DNA of 64,000 nucleotides from assembly GCF_007827275.1 (NCBI RefSeq), contig NZ_VISE01000001.1, positions 2,356,001-2,420,000 on the forward strand. Direction: 5' to 3'. The notes beneath the pieces were generated by a model, which worked only from the letters and a program-made list of their open reading frames with translations, had not been told where the DNA came from and searched no databases. Below are positions 58,785-64,000 of this stretch, in pieces (position 1 is the first letter of the stretch; the number at the start of each line of letters is the position of its first letter). The DNA is from Gillisia sp. Hel_I_86 (GTDB lineage Bacteria; Bacteroidota; Bacteroidia; Flavobacteriales; Flavobacteriaceae). Both the position numbers and the translations under genes were made by a program.

Positions 58785-60041
58785 CTAGAGCCCAAAAACT
58801 TCCTTTACCCTACCTACATAATCCAATTTTTCCCAAGTAAACAGTTCCACTTTTTTGGAGATCTTACCTGAATACGGACTTTCGAAAATCTTGGTTATGG
58901 TGCGAGGTTCTTTCCCCATATGGCCATAAGCCGCAGTTTCCCTATAGATAGGGTTTCTTAACTTCAATCTGTTTTCTATACTTGCAGGGCGCATATCAAA
59001 GATTTCAGCTACTTTTTTGGCGATCTCCCCATTGGAAAGTTTCACTTTAGAGGAACCATACGTATCTACCGAGATGGAAGTTGGTTTTACAACCCCTATG
59101 GCATAAGAAACCTGAACCAAAACCTCGTCTGCTACTCCTGCTGCAACCAGATTCTTGGCAATATGTCTTGCAGCATAGGCTGCAGACCTATCTACTTTAC
59201 TAGGGTCTTTTCCAGAAAATGCACCCCCACCGTGGGCTCCTTTTCCACCATAAGTATCCACGATGATCTTTCTTCCTGTAAGCCCGGAATCTCCATGAGG
59301 CCCACCAATTACAAATTTCCCGGTGGGGTTAATATGATAGGTGATCTCCTCATTGAACAATTCCTGTACATGCTGAGGGAATAGTTTTATTACACGCGGA
59401 ATCAATATTTCCTTCATGTCCTTTTTGATCTTATCCAGCATGGTTTTATCATCACCGTTAAAATCGTCATGTTGCGTAGAGATCACGATAGCTTCTATGC
59501 GTTGTGGCACATTCTCATCGCTATATTCAATAGTCACCTGACTTTTGGAATCGGGTCTTAAATAAGTGATCTCTTTTTCTTCCCGGCGTAATTTTGCAAG
59601 TTCTATCAAGATCTTGTGAGAGATATCCAGGGCCAAAGGCATGTAATTTTCGGTCTCGTTGGTTGCGTAACCAAACATCATCCCTTGATCTCCTGCACCT
59701 TGTTCCTCCTTTTCACCACGATCCACCCCTTGGTTGATTTCCTGGGATTGTTCATGGATCAAAGAAATAACCCCACAAGAGTCGCCGCTAAATTTGTAGG
59801 CTCCTTTGGTATATCCAATATCGTTAATTACCTCACGGGCAATATTTTGAACGTCTATATACGTGTTGCTTTTCACTTCTCCAGCAAGTACAACTTGTCC
59901 TGTAGTCACAAGGGTTTCACAAGCAACCTTGGAATTTTCATCAAAAGCTAAAAAATTATCTAGTAAGGTATCACTGATTTGGTCAGCTATTTTATCTGGA
60001 TGTCCCTCAGAAACACTCTCTGAAGTGAATAAATACGCCAT
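58785..60041 (-). CDS. metK: S-adenosylmethionine synthetase
   Basis: A 418-residue enzyme making SAM from methionine and ATP. Hallmarks are SESVSEGHPDKIADQISD (methionine/ATP site), GDQGMMFGYATNE, GGPHGDSGLTGRKIIVDTYGG and GGGAFSGKDPSKVDRSAAY. Length is normal. It is convergent with the TonB receptor gene and divergent from the methionine operon, with a structured leader upstream (60085-60133). Confidence 0.96.
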   Translation of the reverse strand: MAYLFTSESVSEGHPDKIADQISDTLLDNFLAFDENSKVACETLVTTGQVVLAGEVKSNTYIDVQNIAREVINDIGYTKGAYKFSGDSCGVISLIHEQSQEINQGVDRGEKEEQGAGDQGMMFGYATNETENYMPLALDISHKILIELAKLRREEKEITYLRPDSKSQVTIEYSDENVPQRIEAIVISTQHDDFNGDDKTMLDKIKKDMKEILIPRVIKLFPQHVQELFNEEITYHINPTGKFVIGGPHGDSGLTGRKIIVDTYGGKGAHGGGAFSGKDPSKVDRSAAYAARHIAKNLVAAGVADEVLVQVSYAIGVVKPTSISVDTYGSSKVKLSNGEIAKKVAEIFDMRPASIENRLKLRNPIYRETAAYGHMGKEPRTITKIFESPYSGKISKKVELFTWEKLDYVGRVKEVFGL

Positions 60042-60084
60042 TCTTGTCTTTTTAATTAGTAGATAAGGAAACTCTTTGACGGGA

Positions 60085-60133
60085 ATTGCTAGCGAAGTTT
60101 ACACTGCTTTAGCATTTTTGTAAGGGTAGCAAT
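60085..60133 (-). ncRNA. Structured 5' leader element of metK
   Basis: On the minus strand the outer stem ATTGCTA / TAGCAAT encloses TTACA / TGTAA and an inner TGCT-AA-AGCA hairpin, 43 to 92 bp before the metK start. A TACATTTG promoter box lies just upstream. It does not match the SAM-I or SAM-II layout as I know them. It could be a regulatory leader or only a stabilising hairpin. Confidence 0.4.
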
Positions 60134-60164
60134 CAGTCAAATCAATCCCTGTAATCGTATGGGG

Positions 60165-60172
60165 CAAATGTA
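60165..60172 (-). promoter_or_regulatory. TACATTTG -7-type promoter box of metK
   Basis: On the minus strand it matches TANNTTTG, 124 bp before the metK start. No good TTG -33 box was seen. Confidence 0.4.
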
Positions 60173-60399
60173 TAAAATTAGATTGAATGTCGTCATTCTT
60201 TAACTTCTTTTTTAATATTTGTTTGGCGCTCCGCTTTGCCAAAAGGCTCGCGTCAGGCTTTCACGACTCGCTTCCCGATAAAAAAGTTCGGGAGAGCTCA
60301 AACAATCGCTCAATCCTTAGCGCAAAAGAAAATGATTCCTTCCGTATTATTGATATTCAGTAGGTTAGTTGAGTTTTTTAAAAATAATTGAAAATAAAT

Positions 60400-60431
60400 T
60401 TGTTTTATAAAGGATTCTGTCGTTAAATTTG
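60400..60431 (+). promoter_or_regulatory. Promoter of the methionine leader region
   Basis: TTG (60400-60402) and TAAATTTG (60424-60431) with a 21-bp spacer match the TTG-N17-23-TANNTTTG consensus fully. Transcription should start about 60436-60438, leaving only a short untranslated leader before the ATG at 60451. Confidence 0.7.
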
Positions 60432-60450
60432 TGACATAGATTTTAATAAG

Positions 60451-60519
60451 ATGAATCAAGTAATGTGCAATATGTGTATGATGATGTTGGGGCAACCCGC
60501 AGCGTTCACTATTGCATAA
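60451..60519 (+). CDS. Met/Cys-rich leader peptide 1
   Basis: A 22-codon frame beginning MNQVMCNMCMMMLG, with 6 Met and 2 Cys codons in its first 12, then GQPAAFTIA and a stop. A consensus promoter lies just upstream and a strong terminator begins 22 bp after its stop. GCAGCG (60499-60504) inside the frame can pair with CGCTGC (60547-60552) of the terminator's 5' arm. This is the arrangement of a ribosome-stalling attenuator for methionine genes. The expected role is control of the metY operon. Confidence 0.7.
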   Translation: MNQVMCNMCMMMLGQPAAFTIA

Positions 60520-60540
60520 AACTTAAATTATAAGAATTGC

Positions 60541-60572
60541 AAAAGCCGCTGCCAACCGCAGCGGCTTTTTTT
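60541..60572 (+). terminator. Attenuator terminator 1
   Basis: The stem AAAAGCCGCTGC / GCAGCGGCTTTT with a five-base loop (CAACC) is followed by a T-tract. The leader peptide's CAACCCGCAGCG copies the loop and 3' arm, giving a competing partner for the 5' arm. Confidence 0.85.
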
Positions 60573-60591
60573 GTTTATATAATTTAACCAT

Positions 60592-60750
60592 TGTTTGTCC
60601 GCTAAGTGTCCTATACTGAAAAAGAACGTCATTCTGTCCCGACCGTTCGGGAGTTTCAGAATCTCATTATAATGTAAATCAATTTGATATTGAGACCCTG
60701 AAATAAATTCAGGGTGACGAAAGAACAATTACGACGAATAACGGATATAC
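60592..60750 (+). repeat. MITE-like repeat family B, copy D
   Basis: It begins TTTGTCCGCTAAGTGTCC and ends AATAACGGATATAC. It contains CCCGACCGTTCGGG and GACCCTGAAATAAATTCAGGGT. It lies between the two leader-peptide units and is almost the same as the copy at 32233. Confidence 0.85.
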
Positions 60751-60791
60751 ATTTTAACCAAATCAAAAATTTAATATTCAAAAAATCAAGC

Positions 60792-60896
60792 ATGATTAAA
60801 AATTTAGCAATAGCAACTATAATGGGAATGATGATGCAAATGTGTATGATGTACGCAACAAGCCGCTATCGCCAAAAAATTCAGGATGTAAATTAG
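60792..60896 (+). CDS. Met-rich leader peptide 2
   Basis: A 34-codon frame with 8 Met codons; residues 11-20 read MGMMMQMCMM. The tail YATSRYRQKIQDVN precedes the TAG at 60894. A strong terminator starts 22 bp after its stop, and metY follows 111 bp after it. This is the second such unit in series. A potential antiterminator (GCCA at 60871-60874 and GGAT at 60884-60887 pairing with TGGC and ATCC of the terminator's 5' arm) is weaker than in unit 1. Confidence 0.7.
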   Translation: MIKNLAIATIMGMMMQMCMMYATSRYRQKIQDVN

Positions 60897-60917
60897 TTTT
60901 ATATAGTTCAATTCCTA

Positions 60918-60951
60918 AATCCCTCTGGCAAACTAGCCAGAGGGATTTTTT
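60918..60951 (+). terminator. Attenuator terminator 2
   Basis: A perfect 12-bp stem AATCCCTCTGGC / GCCAGAGGGATT with loop AAACTA, then a T-run. It lies 56 bp before the metY start, so only read-through reaches the operon. Confidence 0.85.
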
Positions 60952-61006
60952 ATTTCAGCAAAATCAAGATCATTCAATTTCAAAATAAACCTTTAAAATA
61001 AAAATC

Positions 61007-62299
61007 ATGAGCACGCAACAATTTTCAACAAACGCACTGCACGCAGGTCACGATGTAACCATCAACGGAGGAACCAGAGCTGTTCCCTTGTATCAAACTA
61101 CTTCTTATGTTTTTAAAAATTCAGACCATGCAGCAAATCTCTTTGCCTTGGCAGAACCGGGATTTATTTACACCAGGCTCAACAATCCCACCAACGATAT
61201 TCTCGAGCAGCGTTTAGCCGCTTTGGAAGGTGGGATTGGAGCTGTGGTAACTGCTTCAGGAACTGCAGCCATTAACACCACTTTATTAACCTTGTTAAGA
61301 TCTGGAGATCATATCGTGGCTTCCAGTAGTCTTTATGGAGGCACCTATAATCTTTTAAATGTAACCTTGCCAAGATTTGGGATCACCACCACTTTTGTAG
61401 ATCCGTCCAATCCGGAAAACTTTCAAAAAGCAGCCCAAGAAAACACCAGGGTCTTTTTTATAGAATCTCTTGGGAACCCAAAATTGGATGTATTGGATAT
61501 CAAGGCTATTTCCAAACATGCAAAATCACATAAAGTTCCTTTGATCGTGGATAACACGGTAGCAACCCCTTCACTTTTAAACCCGATCCAGCACGGGGCA
61601 GATATTGTTATTCATTCCCTTACCAAATATATCAACGGGAATGGAACTTCTCTTGGCGGGGTTATCATTGATGCCGGAAAATTTGATTGGGCCAATGGCA
61701 AATTTCCTGAATTTACAGAGCCTTCTGCGGGGTATCATGGCCTTGTGTATCATGATGCTTTAAAGGAAGCAGCCTTCATTGCCAGAGTAAGAATAGAAGG
61801 ATTGCGGGATCATGGCGCGGCATTAAGTCCGTTCAATGCATTCCAGATCATTCAGGGATTGGAGACTTTGGAAATTAGGATCAAAAGACACAGTGAAAAC
61901 GCTTTGGCATTGGCCAAATGGTTACAAGAACAGGAGCAGGTGAAATGGGTGAATTATCCGGGATTGGAGAGTAGTGAATATTATGAACTTGCACAGCAAT
62001 ATTTACCTAAAGGGCAAAGCGGGGTTGTGACCTTTGGAGTGGATGGCGGTTTTGATGCTGCGAAAGTAATTGCCGATGAGACTACTATTTTCTCCTTGCT
62101 TGCAAATATTGGGGATACCAAATCTTTGATAATTCACCCTGCCAGTACAACCCATCAACAACTGGATGATGAACAACAGGAATCTACCGGAGTTACCAAA
62201 GATCTCATCAGGCTTTCTGTAGGATTGGAGGATCTGGAGGACCTGAAGACCGATCTAAAACAAGCATTTTCCAAGATTGGTAAAAAGGTTTTAAAATAA
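61007..62299 (+). CDS. metY: O-acetylhomoserine aminocarboxypropyltransferase (sulfhydrylase)
   Basis: A 430-residue PLP enzyme of the Cys/Met metabolism family that makes homocysteine from O-acetylhomoserine and sulfide. Typical features are TNALHAGHDVTINGGTRAVPLYQTTSYVF, IYTRLNNPTNDILEQRLAALEGG, the PLP lysine in VIHSLTKYINGNGTSLGG (about K207), and a C-terminal SVGLEDLEDLKTDLKQA. It is the first structural gene downstream of two attenuator-like units. metX and hom follow in the same direction. Confidence 0.95.
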   Translation: MSTQQFSTNALHAGHDVTINGGTRAVPLYQTTSYVFKNSDHAANLFALAEPGFIYTRLNNPTNDILEQRLAALEGGIGAVVTASGTAAINTTLLTLLRSGDHIVASSSLYGGTYNLLNVTLPRFGITTTFVDPSNPENFQKAAQENTRVFFIESLGNPKLDVLDIKAISKHAKSHKVPLIVDNTVATPSLLNPIQHGADIVIHSLTKYINGNGTSLGGVIIDAGKFDWANGKFPEFTEPSAGYHGLVYHDALKEAAFIARVRIEGLRDHGAALSPFNAFQIIQGLETLEIRIKRHSENALALAKWLQEQEQVKWVNYPGLESSEYYELAQQYLPKGQSGVVTFGVDGGFDAAKVIADETTIFSLLANIGDTKSLIIHPASTTHQQLDDEQQESTGVTKDLIRLSVGLEDLEDLKTDLKQAFSKIGKKVLK

Positions 62300-62489: not shown

Positions 62490-63497
62490 ATGCTTCAAAA
62501 GATAAAAATCTCAAATTTCAAGAACAGTGCGGGAACCATTCAGGAGCTCCAATTAACCTATCAAATTTTTGGTAGGGAATTAGGAACTGCGCCGATAGTT
62601 CTGGTGAATCATGCGCTTACGGGAAATTCAGCAGTAACAGGGAAAAATGGCTGGTGGAAAGAAATAATTGGAATTGATAAAAGTATCGATCTTAAAGACT
62701 ATACCGTTCTGGCATTTAATATTCCGGGGAATGGTTTTGATGGAGAGGAGTCTCATTTATTATTAAATTATAAAGATTTCAACCTAAGGGATATTGCTAA
62801 ACTTTATTCTGAAGCATTAAAACAATTAGGGGTCTCTAAAATATTTGCAGGAATTGGAGGGTCTGTTGGGGGAGCACTCTTATGGGAGCAGGCAGTTTTA
62901 GATCCAGATCTTTTTGAACATTTAATTCCCATTGCAACAGATTATAAAGCAACTCCGTGGGTGAAGGCACAATGTAAGGTGCAGGAACAGATTTTAAATA
63001 ATTCTGTAAGTCCTGTTGCAGATGCCAGAATGCATGCAATGACAATTTATAGAAGTCCGGAATCTTTCGTCTTTAAATTTGCTTCAAGTCAAAACCATAA
63101 AAGCGGAAATATTGAAGGCTGGTTGGAACATCATGGTAAAAAATTGGAAAACAGGTTTCAATTGGCATCCTACAAACTAATGAATCATTTGCTTTCTACA
63201 TCAGATATAAGCCTGGGGCGTGGAGATCACTTAAATTCCGCATCAAAAATCACAGGAGACATACATATTATCACCATAAATTCTGATGGCTTGTTTACAC
63301 CCAGTGAGAATTGGGATACTTATGTAAATCTGTCCCTTATCAAAGAAAACATAAGCATCCATGAAATTAGATCCATCCATGGGCATGATGCTTTTCTAAT
63401 TGAGAATTCTCAAGTAGCATCCTTTATAAACCCAATCTTCAACGCAGGTAACAAACAAAATGAAAAAAATAAACATAGTTCTATTCGGAGTAGGTAA
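62490..63497 (+). CDS. metX: Homoserine O-acetyltransferase-like alpha/beta-hydrolase fold enzyme
   Basis: A 335-residue enzyme. The nucleophile elbow is GGSVGG (GIGGSVGGALLWEQAVLDP, Ser near residue 129), the Asp is in INSDGLFTPSENWD and the His in IHGHDAFLIE. QLTYQIFGRE and VNHALTGNSAVTG are the family's opening. The residue after the nucleophile is Val rather than the more usual Met. It activates homoserine to O-acetylhomoserine for metY. Its last 38 bp overlap the homoserine dehydrogenase gene in another frame. Confidence 0.9.
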   Translation: MLQKIKISNFKNSAGTIQELQLTYQIFGRELGTAPIVLVNHALTGNSAVTGKNGWWKEIIGIDKSIDLKDYTVLAFNIPGNGFDGEESHLLLNYKDFNLRDIAKLYSEALKQLGVSKIFAGIGGSVGGALLWEQAVLDPDLFEHLIPIATDYKATPWVKAQCKVQEQILNNSVSPVADARMHAMTIYRSPESFVFKFASSQNHKSGNIEGWLEHHGKKLENRFQLASYKLMNHLLSTSDISLGRGDHLNSASKITGDIHIITINSDGLFTPSENWDTYVNLSLIKENISIHEIRSIHGHDAFLIENSQVASFINPIFNAGNKQNEKNKHSSIRSR

Positions 63498-64000
63498 TGT
63501 AGGGAGTTCCTTAATAAATCAGATATTGAAAGCCCGATCCAAAATTTTAAATTCCTCTCAATTAGAGATCAACCTTGTGGTTTTGGTAAATTCTAAAATC
63601 GCTTTTTATAACCATGACACATTAAAAAATTCATGGCTGGCAGATTTTAAAGCCCATGGATACCCTTATAAATTGTCACATATTATAAATCATGTCAAAA
63701 AAGAGAAACTCACCAATCTAATTGCCGTAGATGCAACTGCAAGCGAGAAGTTTGTAAAGAATTATAAGGAATTAATAAGAAACGGATTTCATATAGTGGC
63801 CGCCAATAAAACCGCTAACACGCTCTCTGATATTTTTTATAAGGAATTGAGGGGAGAGTTGAAAAAATATGACAAACAATTCTTATATGAAACCAATGTT
63901 GGAGCTGGGTTACCGGTAATTAAAACCTTACAGGATCTCCATTTGGCTGGGGAGGAAGTAACCAGAATAAGAGGGATCTTCTCGGGGTCTTTAAGTTATA
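63460..64000 (+). CDS. hom: Homoserine dehydrogenase, 3'-truncated by the window edge
   Basis: From the ATG at 63460 the frame stays open to the end of the window (about 180 residues). The start MKKINIVLFGVGNVGSSLINQI holds the GxGxxG nucleotide-binding loop. NLIAVDATASEKFVKNYKELIRNGFHIVAANKTAN is the typical aspartate-semialdehyde/homoserine segment, and FLYETNVGAGLPVIKTLQDL is the catalytic region. No aspartokinase domain precedes it, so it is the monofunctional or C-terminal form. It overlaps metX by 38 bp and completes the homoserine to homocysteine route. Confidence 0.93.
   Translation, partial: MKKINIVLFGVGNVGSSLINQILKARSKILNSSQLEINLVVLVNSKIAFYNHDTLKNSWLADFKAHGYPYKLSHIINHVKKEKLTNLIAVDATASEKFVKNYKELIRNGFHIVAANKTANTLSDIFYKELRGELKKYDKQFLYETNVGAGLPVIKTLQDLHLAGEEVTRIRGIFSGSLSY

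Follow-up and report, generated by a model that had tools for sequence, protein, structure and literature searches.

Candidate tandem methionine leader-peptide attenuators upstream of the metY-metX-hom operon in Gillisia and related Flavobacteriaceae

The classical amino-acid leader attenuators are those of trp, his, leu, thr and phe, several of which are represented by leader families in Rfam, Phe_leader, Thr_leader and His_leader among them. Methionine genes have mostly been described under the control of repressors, SAM riboswitches or T-boxes, and methionine lends itself poorly to attenuation, since initiation too is at risk when its tRNA runs short. According to the accessible text of their paper, Naville and Gautheret (2010) knew of amino-acid leader-peptide systems only in Proteobacteria and Actinobacteria before their own case in Firmicutes (PMC2965389). 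For methionine, metL upstream of metNIQ in Streptomyces lividans has been put forward as a leader-peptide candidate in the available part of PMC8079986. The consulted portions of two further papers contain a general remark on leader-peptide attenuation before amino-acid operons in Flavobacterium psychrophilum, with details given in supplements (PMC9723704), and a comment that short ORFs of Bacteroides thetaiotaomicron bring leader peptides to mind (PMC7366714). Here, based on comparative sequence analysis of a Gillisia genome, we estimate at about 0.88 the probability that ribosome-mediated transcription attenuation, acting through two units in series, controls the metY-metX-hom operon.

The window, that is, the whole stretch of 64,000 nucleotides that was analyzed, lies in a 4.2-Mb genome whose metY has its nearest named relatives in Gillisia (94–97% identity). 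This gene, encoding O-acetylhomoserine sulfhydrylase (61007–62299, + strand; TIGR01326, 638 bits, above cut-off), is followed by a metX-like homoserine O-acyltransferase gene (62490–63497, + strand; TIGR01392, 168 bits, short of the 500 bits set as its curated cut-off) and by a gene for a homoserine dehydrogenase domain protein that runs off the window (63460–64000, + strand; partial, below cut-offs). The operon downstream of both leaders, metY-metX-hom, belongs to the cognate, methionine-making pathway. The genes past the window end encode a further PLP sulfhydrylase-like protein, another homoserine dehydrogenase, an Rrf2-type regulator and then MetH. Divergent from metY, metK (methionine adenosyltransferase; 58785–60041, − strand; TIGR01034, 508 bits) is preceded by a SAM-II riboswitch located outside the attenuator (60099–60156, − strand; RF01726, 54.7 bits). 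The original prediction had seen no SAM-II motif nearby and was mistaken on this point; a SAM-II divergent from metY is present in many relatives as well. In addition, an S-box (RF00162, 85.3 bits) sits immediately 5′ of metH in the same genome (L148:13976–14080, G000:C1, ~13.5 kb past the window end). One pathway in one genome is served by three RNA sensing logics, namely an S-box at metH, SAM-II at metK and Met leaders at metY.

Unit 1 begins with a promoter of the Bacteroidota sigma-A type, TTG-N21-TAAATTTG, which was anticipated and can be read directly at 60400–60431 on the + strand (TTG at 60400–60402, TAAATTTG at 60424–60431); transcription would start near 60436. The sigma-A consensus for Flavobacterium psychrophilum, as given in the accessible text of PMC9723704, is TAnnTTTG at −12 to −5. 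Leader ORF 1, identified from the sequence and its relatives, spans 60451–60519 (+ strand) and encodes the 22-codon peptide MNQVMCNMCMMMLGQPAAFTIA, with Met at codons 1, 5, 8, 10, 11 and 12 and Cys at codons 6 and 9, in agreement with the expected six Met and two Cys in the first 12 codons when the start Met is counted. The strong intrinsic terminator foreseen 22 nt past the stop is likewise present (60541–60572, + strand), with a 12-bp stem (60541–60552/60558–60569) and a T-run to 60572, as indicated by sequence, folding and covariation. Folding of 60430–60580 yielded z = −4.49, and 0 of 200 shuffles were equally stable.

Together, these elements form a full trp-type strand set, comprising 1:2, a two-helix antiterminator 2:3 and the terminator 3:4, all on the + strand. 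Strand 1 (UGCAAUA; 60466–60472, codons 6–8) has strand 2b (UAUUGCA; 60510–60516, the last codons of the ORF) as its partner, based on covariation and folding. Strand 2b may instead pair with strand 3b (UGCAA; 60538–60542), as judged by the duplex test and folding, and the same two approaches point to strand 2a (GCAGCG; 60499–60504) as the antiterminator partner of strand 3a (CGCTGC; 60547–60552), the complementarity of which had been predicted correctly. Strand 3a is located inside the 5′ arm of the terminator, and strand 4 is its 3′ arm (60558–60569). The proposal that CAACCCGCAGCG repeats the terminator loop and 3′ arm needs correcting, as the match to CAACCGCAGCGG is inexact by an additional C and relatives do not conserve the part from the loop. 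Strand 1, the second antiterminator helix and the family-wide Cys enrichment reported below were not part of the original prediction.

We considered and rejected a chance origin of the Met-rich ORFs. Five of 644 ATG ORFs of 12–45 codons in the window contain at least five non-start Met, and two of these five are units 1 and 2; on the + strand, such an ORF appeared in 0 of 2000 dinucleotide shuffles of 60042–61006. The Met-Cys-Met-Met DNA pattern ATGTGYATGATG has three copies in the 4.2-Mb genome, two of them in units 1 and 2. We also rejected the possibility that terminators 1 and 2 mark the end of an upstream gene, because metK is divergent and no other + strand gene is listed upstream within the stretch. 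Similarly, a known riboswitch on the + strand was rejected, with no Rfam riboswitch match there: covariance models for SAM-I (S-box) and SAM-II gave no match on the + strand of 60050–61010 at E values up to 5, and no T-box match was listed in the leader by Rfam, including a relaxed-threshold scan. No Rfam family reached threshold on the two leaders in the window, and unit 1 yielded sub-threshold scores only (Phe_leader 24.1 and Thr_leader 23.6 bits; gathering 55).

The original prediction had called for an alignment of the region upstream of metY across Flavobacteriaceae, which we carried out and in which both the Met-rich frames and the competing hairpin proved to be conserved. Across 42 distinct relatives, ORF 1 is 22, 23 or 24 codons long, changing in whole-codon steps, and the frame remains open with either TAA (31) or TGA (11) as the stop. 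Met accounts for 20.4% of non-start residues in unit 1 and 23.1% in unit 2 (37 and 35 distinct peptides, respectively) versus 1.0% in four window proteins, and Cys for 9.0% and 11.6% versus 0.2%, an enrichment that is family-wide. The peptides drift, as exemplified by MNQVMCNMCMMMLGQPAAFTIA, MYLGINNMMMRMMMGKSPAARSIV and MNFTMCNMCMMMWNNPQRKPIA, with Met/Cys richness being retained as order and number shift. Some residues of the unit 1 peptide are conserved (Cys-Asn-Met, Ala-Ala and Ile-Ala), and these coincide with the pairing strands. Between near-identical ORF 1 pairs, synonymous differences made up 13 of 43 distinct cases, versus 13.6% expected.

Next, we examined the switching strands in an alignment of 38 of the 48 unit-1 loci, with 10 Flavobacterium near-copies left out. 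L059, L075 and L089 are outside the unit-1 set, and the sets for both units exclude repeat genomes (L031–L036 and L100, on the same contigs as L003–L009 and L002). Among 37 distinct sequences, 96.1% of the alignment cells in 1:2 and 3:4 are paired, and both-sided changes occur in 8 of 19 pairs (3 in 1:2 and 5 in the terminator), a count reached in 0 of 500 shuffles and compared with at most 3 in slid controls. Because related sequences are not independent, we take these counts as support and not as a probability. Compensatory changes in 1:2 include AACAAT:ATTGTT (L082) and TGTAAT:ATTACA (L067 and L069). The 2a:3a pair GCAGCG:CGCTGC of Gillisia is replaced in Flavobacterium by GCAGAGG with CCTCTGC or CCTCTGT, in a different frame (Pro-Ala-Ala versus Pro-Gln-Arg), and L024 carries GCAAGGGC:GCCCTTGC as its antiterminator arm pair.

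The competing 2:3 pairing that was expected to break the terminator was supported among the relatives and not by the window's sequence alone. Of the 42 distinct sequences, several of them Flavobacterium near-copies, 35 had a 2:3 duplex energy better than that of nucleotide shuffles (P ≤ 0.05) and only 18 had one better than that of codon shuffles at the same level; the window's own unit 1 was not significant in either comparison (P = 0.06 and 0.34, respectively). In an exchange of arms among five lineages, the cognate partner paired best in four of five rows, with L067 preferring a foreign arm. The evidence for strand 3b comes from duplex structures, the automatic extraction having missed strands that overlap the terminator A-run. 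The distance between the last control Met codon and strand 2a is 11–12 nt in 40 of 42 sequences. The two deviating rows are L104, in which the last Met codon is changed to Leu, and L081, whose strand 2a, we think, escaped the script because of a change in the 3′ arm of its terminator.

With a Met composition that is kept, a competing strand at a near-fixed distance and co-changes with the terminator (in Flavobacterium and L024), the data support the leader-peptide attenuation originally proposed. From the sequence elements, we infer translation of the leaders, ribosome stalling, termination and a response to Met or Cys, with the level of charged Met-tRNA as the likely signal and Cys-tRNA perhaps read as well. 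RNA polymerase would transcribe the short Met/Cys-rich ORF with a ribosome trailing. If charged Met-tRNA is plentiful, the ribosome would reach the stop and cover strand 2, allowing the 3:4 terminator to form and end transcription. If it is scarce, the ribosome would stall on the Met run and mask strand 1, leaving strand 2 free just ahead to capture strand 3 while strand 4 is still to be synthesized, so that the polymerase would read on. Without a ribosome, 1:2 would form and the terminator would act.

Constrained folding of the RNA up to 60553, using assumed ribosome footprints, gave 1:2 in the absence of a ribosome, 2a:3a and 2b:3b with probabilities of 0.92–1.0 for a ribosome at the last Met, and at most 0.05 for these two helices for a ribosome at the stop. 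Along with the 11–12-nt gap, these results agree with the prediction that a stall at the last Met would free the arm and that a ribosome at the stop would cover it. Once the terminator is complete, equilibrium folding favors it in all three ribosome states; antitermination must therefore be kinetic and decided during transcription, a genuine limitation of the model. A further point against it is that starvation for Met would be expected to reduce initiator fMet-tRNA as well, which would push the leader toward the no-ribosome, terminating state.

Leader ORF 2 (MIKNLAIATIMGMMMQMCMMYATSRYRQKIQDVN; 60792–60896, + strand), recognized from the sequence and its relatives, contains seven non-start Met and one Cys. 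An intrinsic terminator is found downstream by sequence and folding (60917–60951, + strand; stem 60917–60948, then TTT). Because this Met-rich ORF and its terminator also stand before metY, the attenuator is a tandem, and we infer a two-step logic from this layout, in which repression by units 1 and 2 in series should multiply. Relatives, folding and the pairing test suggest a strand 1 (GCAAUAGC; 60807–60814, + strand), whose proposed partner is strand 2 at 60865–60872 with one mismatch here, and a strand 2 (GCUAUCGCCA...CAGGA; 60865–60884, + strand) as a putative antiterminator weaker than that of unit 1. In Gillisia relatives, the proposed strands read GCAATAGC (strand 1), GCTATTGCCA...CAGGAT (strand 2) and ATCC...TGGCAA (strand 3). 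The unit 2 alignment covers 34 of 36 unit-2 loci (L059 and L075 left out), and the pairing test lost L082, for which the script found no perfect terminator. Pairing reached P ≤ 0.05 in 20 of 34 for 1:2 and in 18 of 34 for 2:3, and arm swaps favored the cognate arm in only two of five rows. Compared with other Gillisia, the window's unit 2 (60865–60896) has an inserted A that shifts the frame, moves the stop downstream and alters the peptide end, and its strand 2 differs from that of close relatives by a T-to-C change; the unit's function, which is putative, is less sure on account of both changes. In one Flavobacterium group (L072, L084, L086, L090, L091, L101, L104 and L109), a conserved Cys-rich ORF, MKIAIYNPRRCCRMCS (MKIEIY... 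in L072), occupies the place of the second Met unit ~115 nt before metY, without an evident terminator.

We then surveyed the region upstream of metY in 110 loci (30 plus 80 named ones, several from the same genomes). A Met-rich leader with a terminator precedes metY in 45 of the 80 named loci, a count that includes L055, whose upstream sequence ends after 167 bases and shows unit 2 alone, and the weaker cases L059, L075 (Cys outnumbering Met) and L089. The genera bearing the leader are Gillisia, Salinimicrobium, Salegentibacter, Christiangramia/Gramella and Flavobacterium, together with unclassified relatives. A covariance model of unit 1, R1, matched 29 of 397 family genomes at E < 1e-6 and one more genome at 3.2e-6. 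At E ≤ 0.01 there were matches in 260 of the 397, most at ~35–45 bits; we took these weak matches to be ordinary terminators, allowing that some may be real leaders, and restricted the counts to E ≤ 3.2e-6. All of the best 30 R1 loci (L111–L140) contain an ORF with at least four Met; in 29 of them it is at the match itself, and L136 has it in its second unit only. Downstream of 26 of these 30 lies metY in the same direction; among the four without it, L119 and L128 are described below, L121 is at a contig edge and L127 precedes a PLP-enzyme paralogue with 35% identity to MetY. Searching 295 genomes of the class, family members included, gave nine R1 matches at 1e-5, of which six belonged to the family. 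The three from outside it (L155–L157) were rejected as leaders on reading, L155 being an Asp repeat that mimics Met out of frame. The module therefore looks confined to Flavobacteriaceae at the sensitivity used, both genome searches with R1 having been run with stricter filters at which weak matches are lost.

Leaders of this type are also found at other genes. In G674, a unit-1 leader (MMLFVCNMCCMMWKNPQSISIA; L152:1500–1640) precedes serine acetyltransferase and cysteine synthase genes, and the same genome has a tandem before metY; the serine acetyltransferase matched its EpsC model above cut-off and the cysteine synthase, its gene clipped by the locus end, scored below. Met/Cys leaders lie 5′ of metX-like genes (assigned by eye) in G621 and G648, with an OsmC-like gene in between in G621. 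The window's genome itself contains a third R1 copy 1.8 kb past the window (G000:C1:2421820–2421943, L141; 86.5 bits; MDKVIRNMYKLMWEAPTAAAFA) before the second homoserine dehydrogenase gene, and with just two non-start Met it is perhaps decayed. At L128:1500–3126, a Met leader unit is followed by a TonB-dependent receptor gene and is divergent from a metK with SAM-II.

Where the Met leader is missing from metY, a SAM riboswitch is usually found. The 35 named metY loci of this kind comprise 33 in which the metY strand bears an S-box (RF00162) no more than ~0.4 kb upstream, one with SAM-II (L110) and one cut off 182 bases before metY (L057). In the 30-locus set, in which the upstream sequence of L013 is cut at 383 bases, an S-box is present in L015–L020 (6/6) and in seven of the nine leaderless loci among L021–L030; the remaining two have SAM-II close to metY (L021) or, 1.3 kb upstream, SAM-II only (L030). 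On a metY tree of 123 rows, built by a quick method with 41 open forks of 118 and with leader labels assigned by hand, the leader label changes six times, at least three of these changes being forced by well supported branches, and 0 of 500 shuffles were as low. An exchange of the metY sensor between Met leader and SAM riboswitch, in one direction or both, has therefore probably taken place on several occasions. Among 31 leader-bearing loci scanned with Rfam, only L119 (− strand) has an S-box between leader and gene, with Met unit 1, the S-box and a metX-like gene (by eye) in that order, placing leader and riboswitch in series. An S-box just 3′ of metY was seen in three leader-bearing loci (L024:1304–1417, −; L129:3007–3119, +; L134:1–101, −), an arrangement that would suit SAM control of the following gene alongside Met-leader control of metY.

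The recurrence of an S-box at the same site upstream of metY in related genera raises the question of whether the RNA binds SAM, methionine or homocysteine itself, as an undescribed riboswitch in which the ORF is incidental and the conserved 1:2 hairpin part of the fold. Such a riboswitch would not account for an ORF whose length changes by whole codons (22, 23 and 24) in an open frame with varying stops, nor for a Met/Cys composition that is kept while sequence and order drift. Moreover, we see no conserved core beyond the start codon, the Met run and the switching strands, and no Rfam riboswitch on the + strand, and we thus regard this explanation as very improbable.

Two other explanations retain a role for the peptide. 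The nascent TnaC peptide arrests the ribosome for Trp, and a comparable arrest in response to Met or SAM could explain why Cys-Asn-Met, Ala-Ala and Ile-Ala are conserved. These residues, however, overlap the pairing strands and change with their partners (ATTGCA to ATTGTT or ATTACA), and Flavobacterium has exchanged Ala-Ala for Gln-Arg while retaining the RNA element, so that an arrest peptide appears slightly less credible still. Met/Cys-rich motifs also resemble copper-binding peptides, and the ORFs might encode functional small metal-binding proteins of this type, the hairpins being just transcript ends. We consider this the least plausible of the three, given that 26 of the best 30 R1 loci are followed by a codirectional metY, that the order of Met and Cys is not preserved, and that no role is left for the antiterminator strand and its fixed spacing.

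Ribosome-mediated attenuation remains our preferred reading, and its extension to a sulfur amino-acid leader regulon of the Flavobacteriaceae is put forward tentatively, at somewhat less than even odds. This regulon would be modular and often tandem, would read Met-tRNA and Cys-tRNA, and would include metY, metX, cysE-cysK and perhaps homoserine dehydrogenase and a TonB receptor, its leaders having repeatedly changed places with the SAM riboswitches of the same gene and, in one case, been joined to one. If so, related species would decide the same step either by tRNA charging or by SAM. Conserved, often tandem Met leaders that are swapped with S-boxes would offer a natural experiment comparing elongator tRNA charging with a SAM readout, and such leaders can be annotated with the element's covariance model.

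Our literature search for earlier descriptions of Met leader peptides, with most subscription papers and supplements outside its reach, returned one candidate, S. lividans metL, and the general remark on F. psychrophilum. Relative to classical attenuation, the Met specificity, the tandem layout and the Bacteroidota host are therefore filed as new, a status that a supplement or paper beyond the search could lower. Based on the parts of the sources available, the S. aureus met leader likewise couples Met-tRNA charging to methionine synthesis via premature transcription termination, but it is a T-box riboswitch that binds uncharged initiator tRNA directly (PMC3771891). The accessible text on the tandem attenuators of Salmonella mgtCBR describes two short ORFs in one leader acting on transcription of the coding region, in an operon that is not for amino-acid synthesis (PMC3641672). 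Actinobacterial cysteine leader peptides, in the portions consulted, share runs of sulfur amino-acid codons in a leader ORF before cognate genes (PMC1262725; PMC13236596) but are restricted to Cys, and conserved terminator hairpins were not found, with Rho being suggested instead (PMC1262725). The proposed S. lividans metL leader also contains several Cys (...CMCRRMCAF); as presented in the available text, it is a single prediction from an actinobacterium at a transporter gene, is leaderless and, per its authors, has no typical Rho-independent terminator (PMC8079986). The F. psychrophilum leaders belong to the same bacterial family and to amino-acid biosynthesis operons, but the word methionine is absent from the main text (PMC9723704). 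With the classical attenuators, the Gillisia locus shares a short ORF rich in codons for the end product, the 1:2, 2:3 and 3:4 pairings and an intrinsic terminator before the cognate operon, and it differs from them in its Met (and Cys) control codons, which lie largely between strands 1 and 2, in its tandem arrangement and in its occurrence in Bacteroidota.
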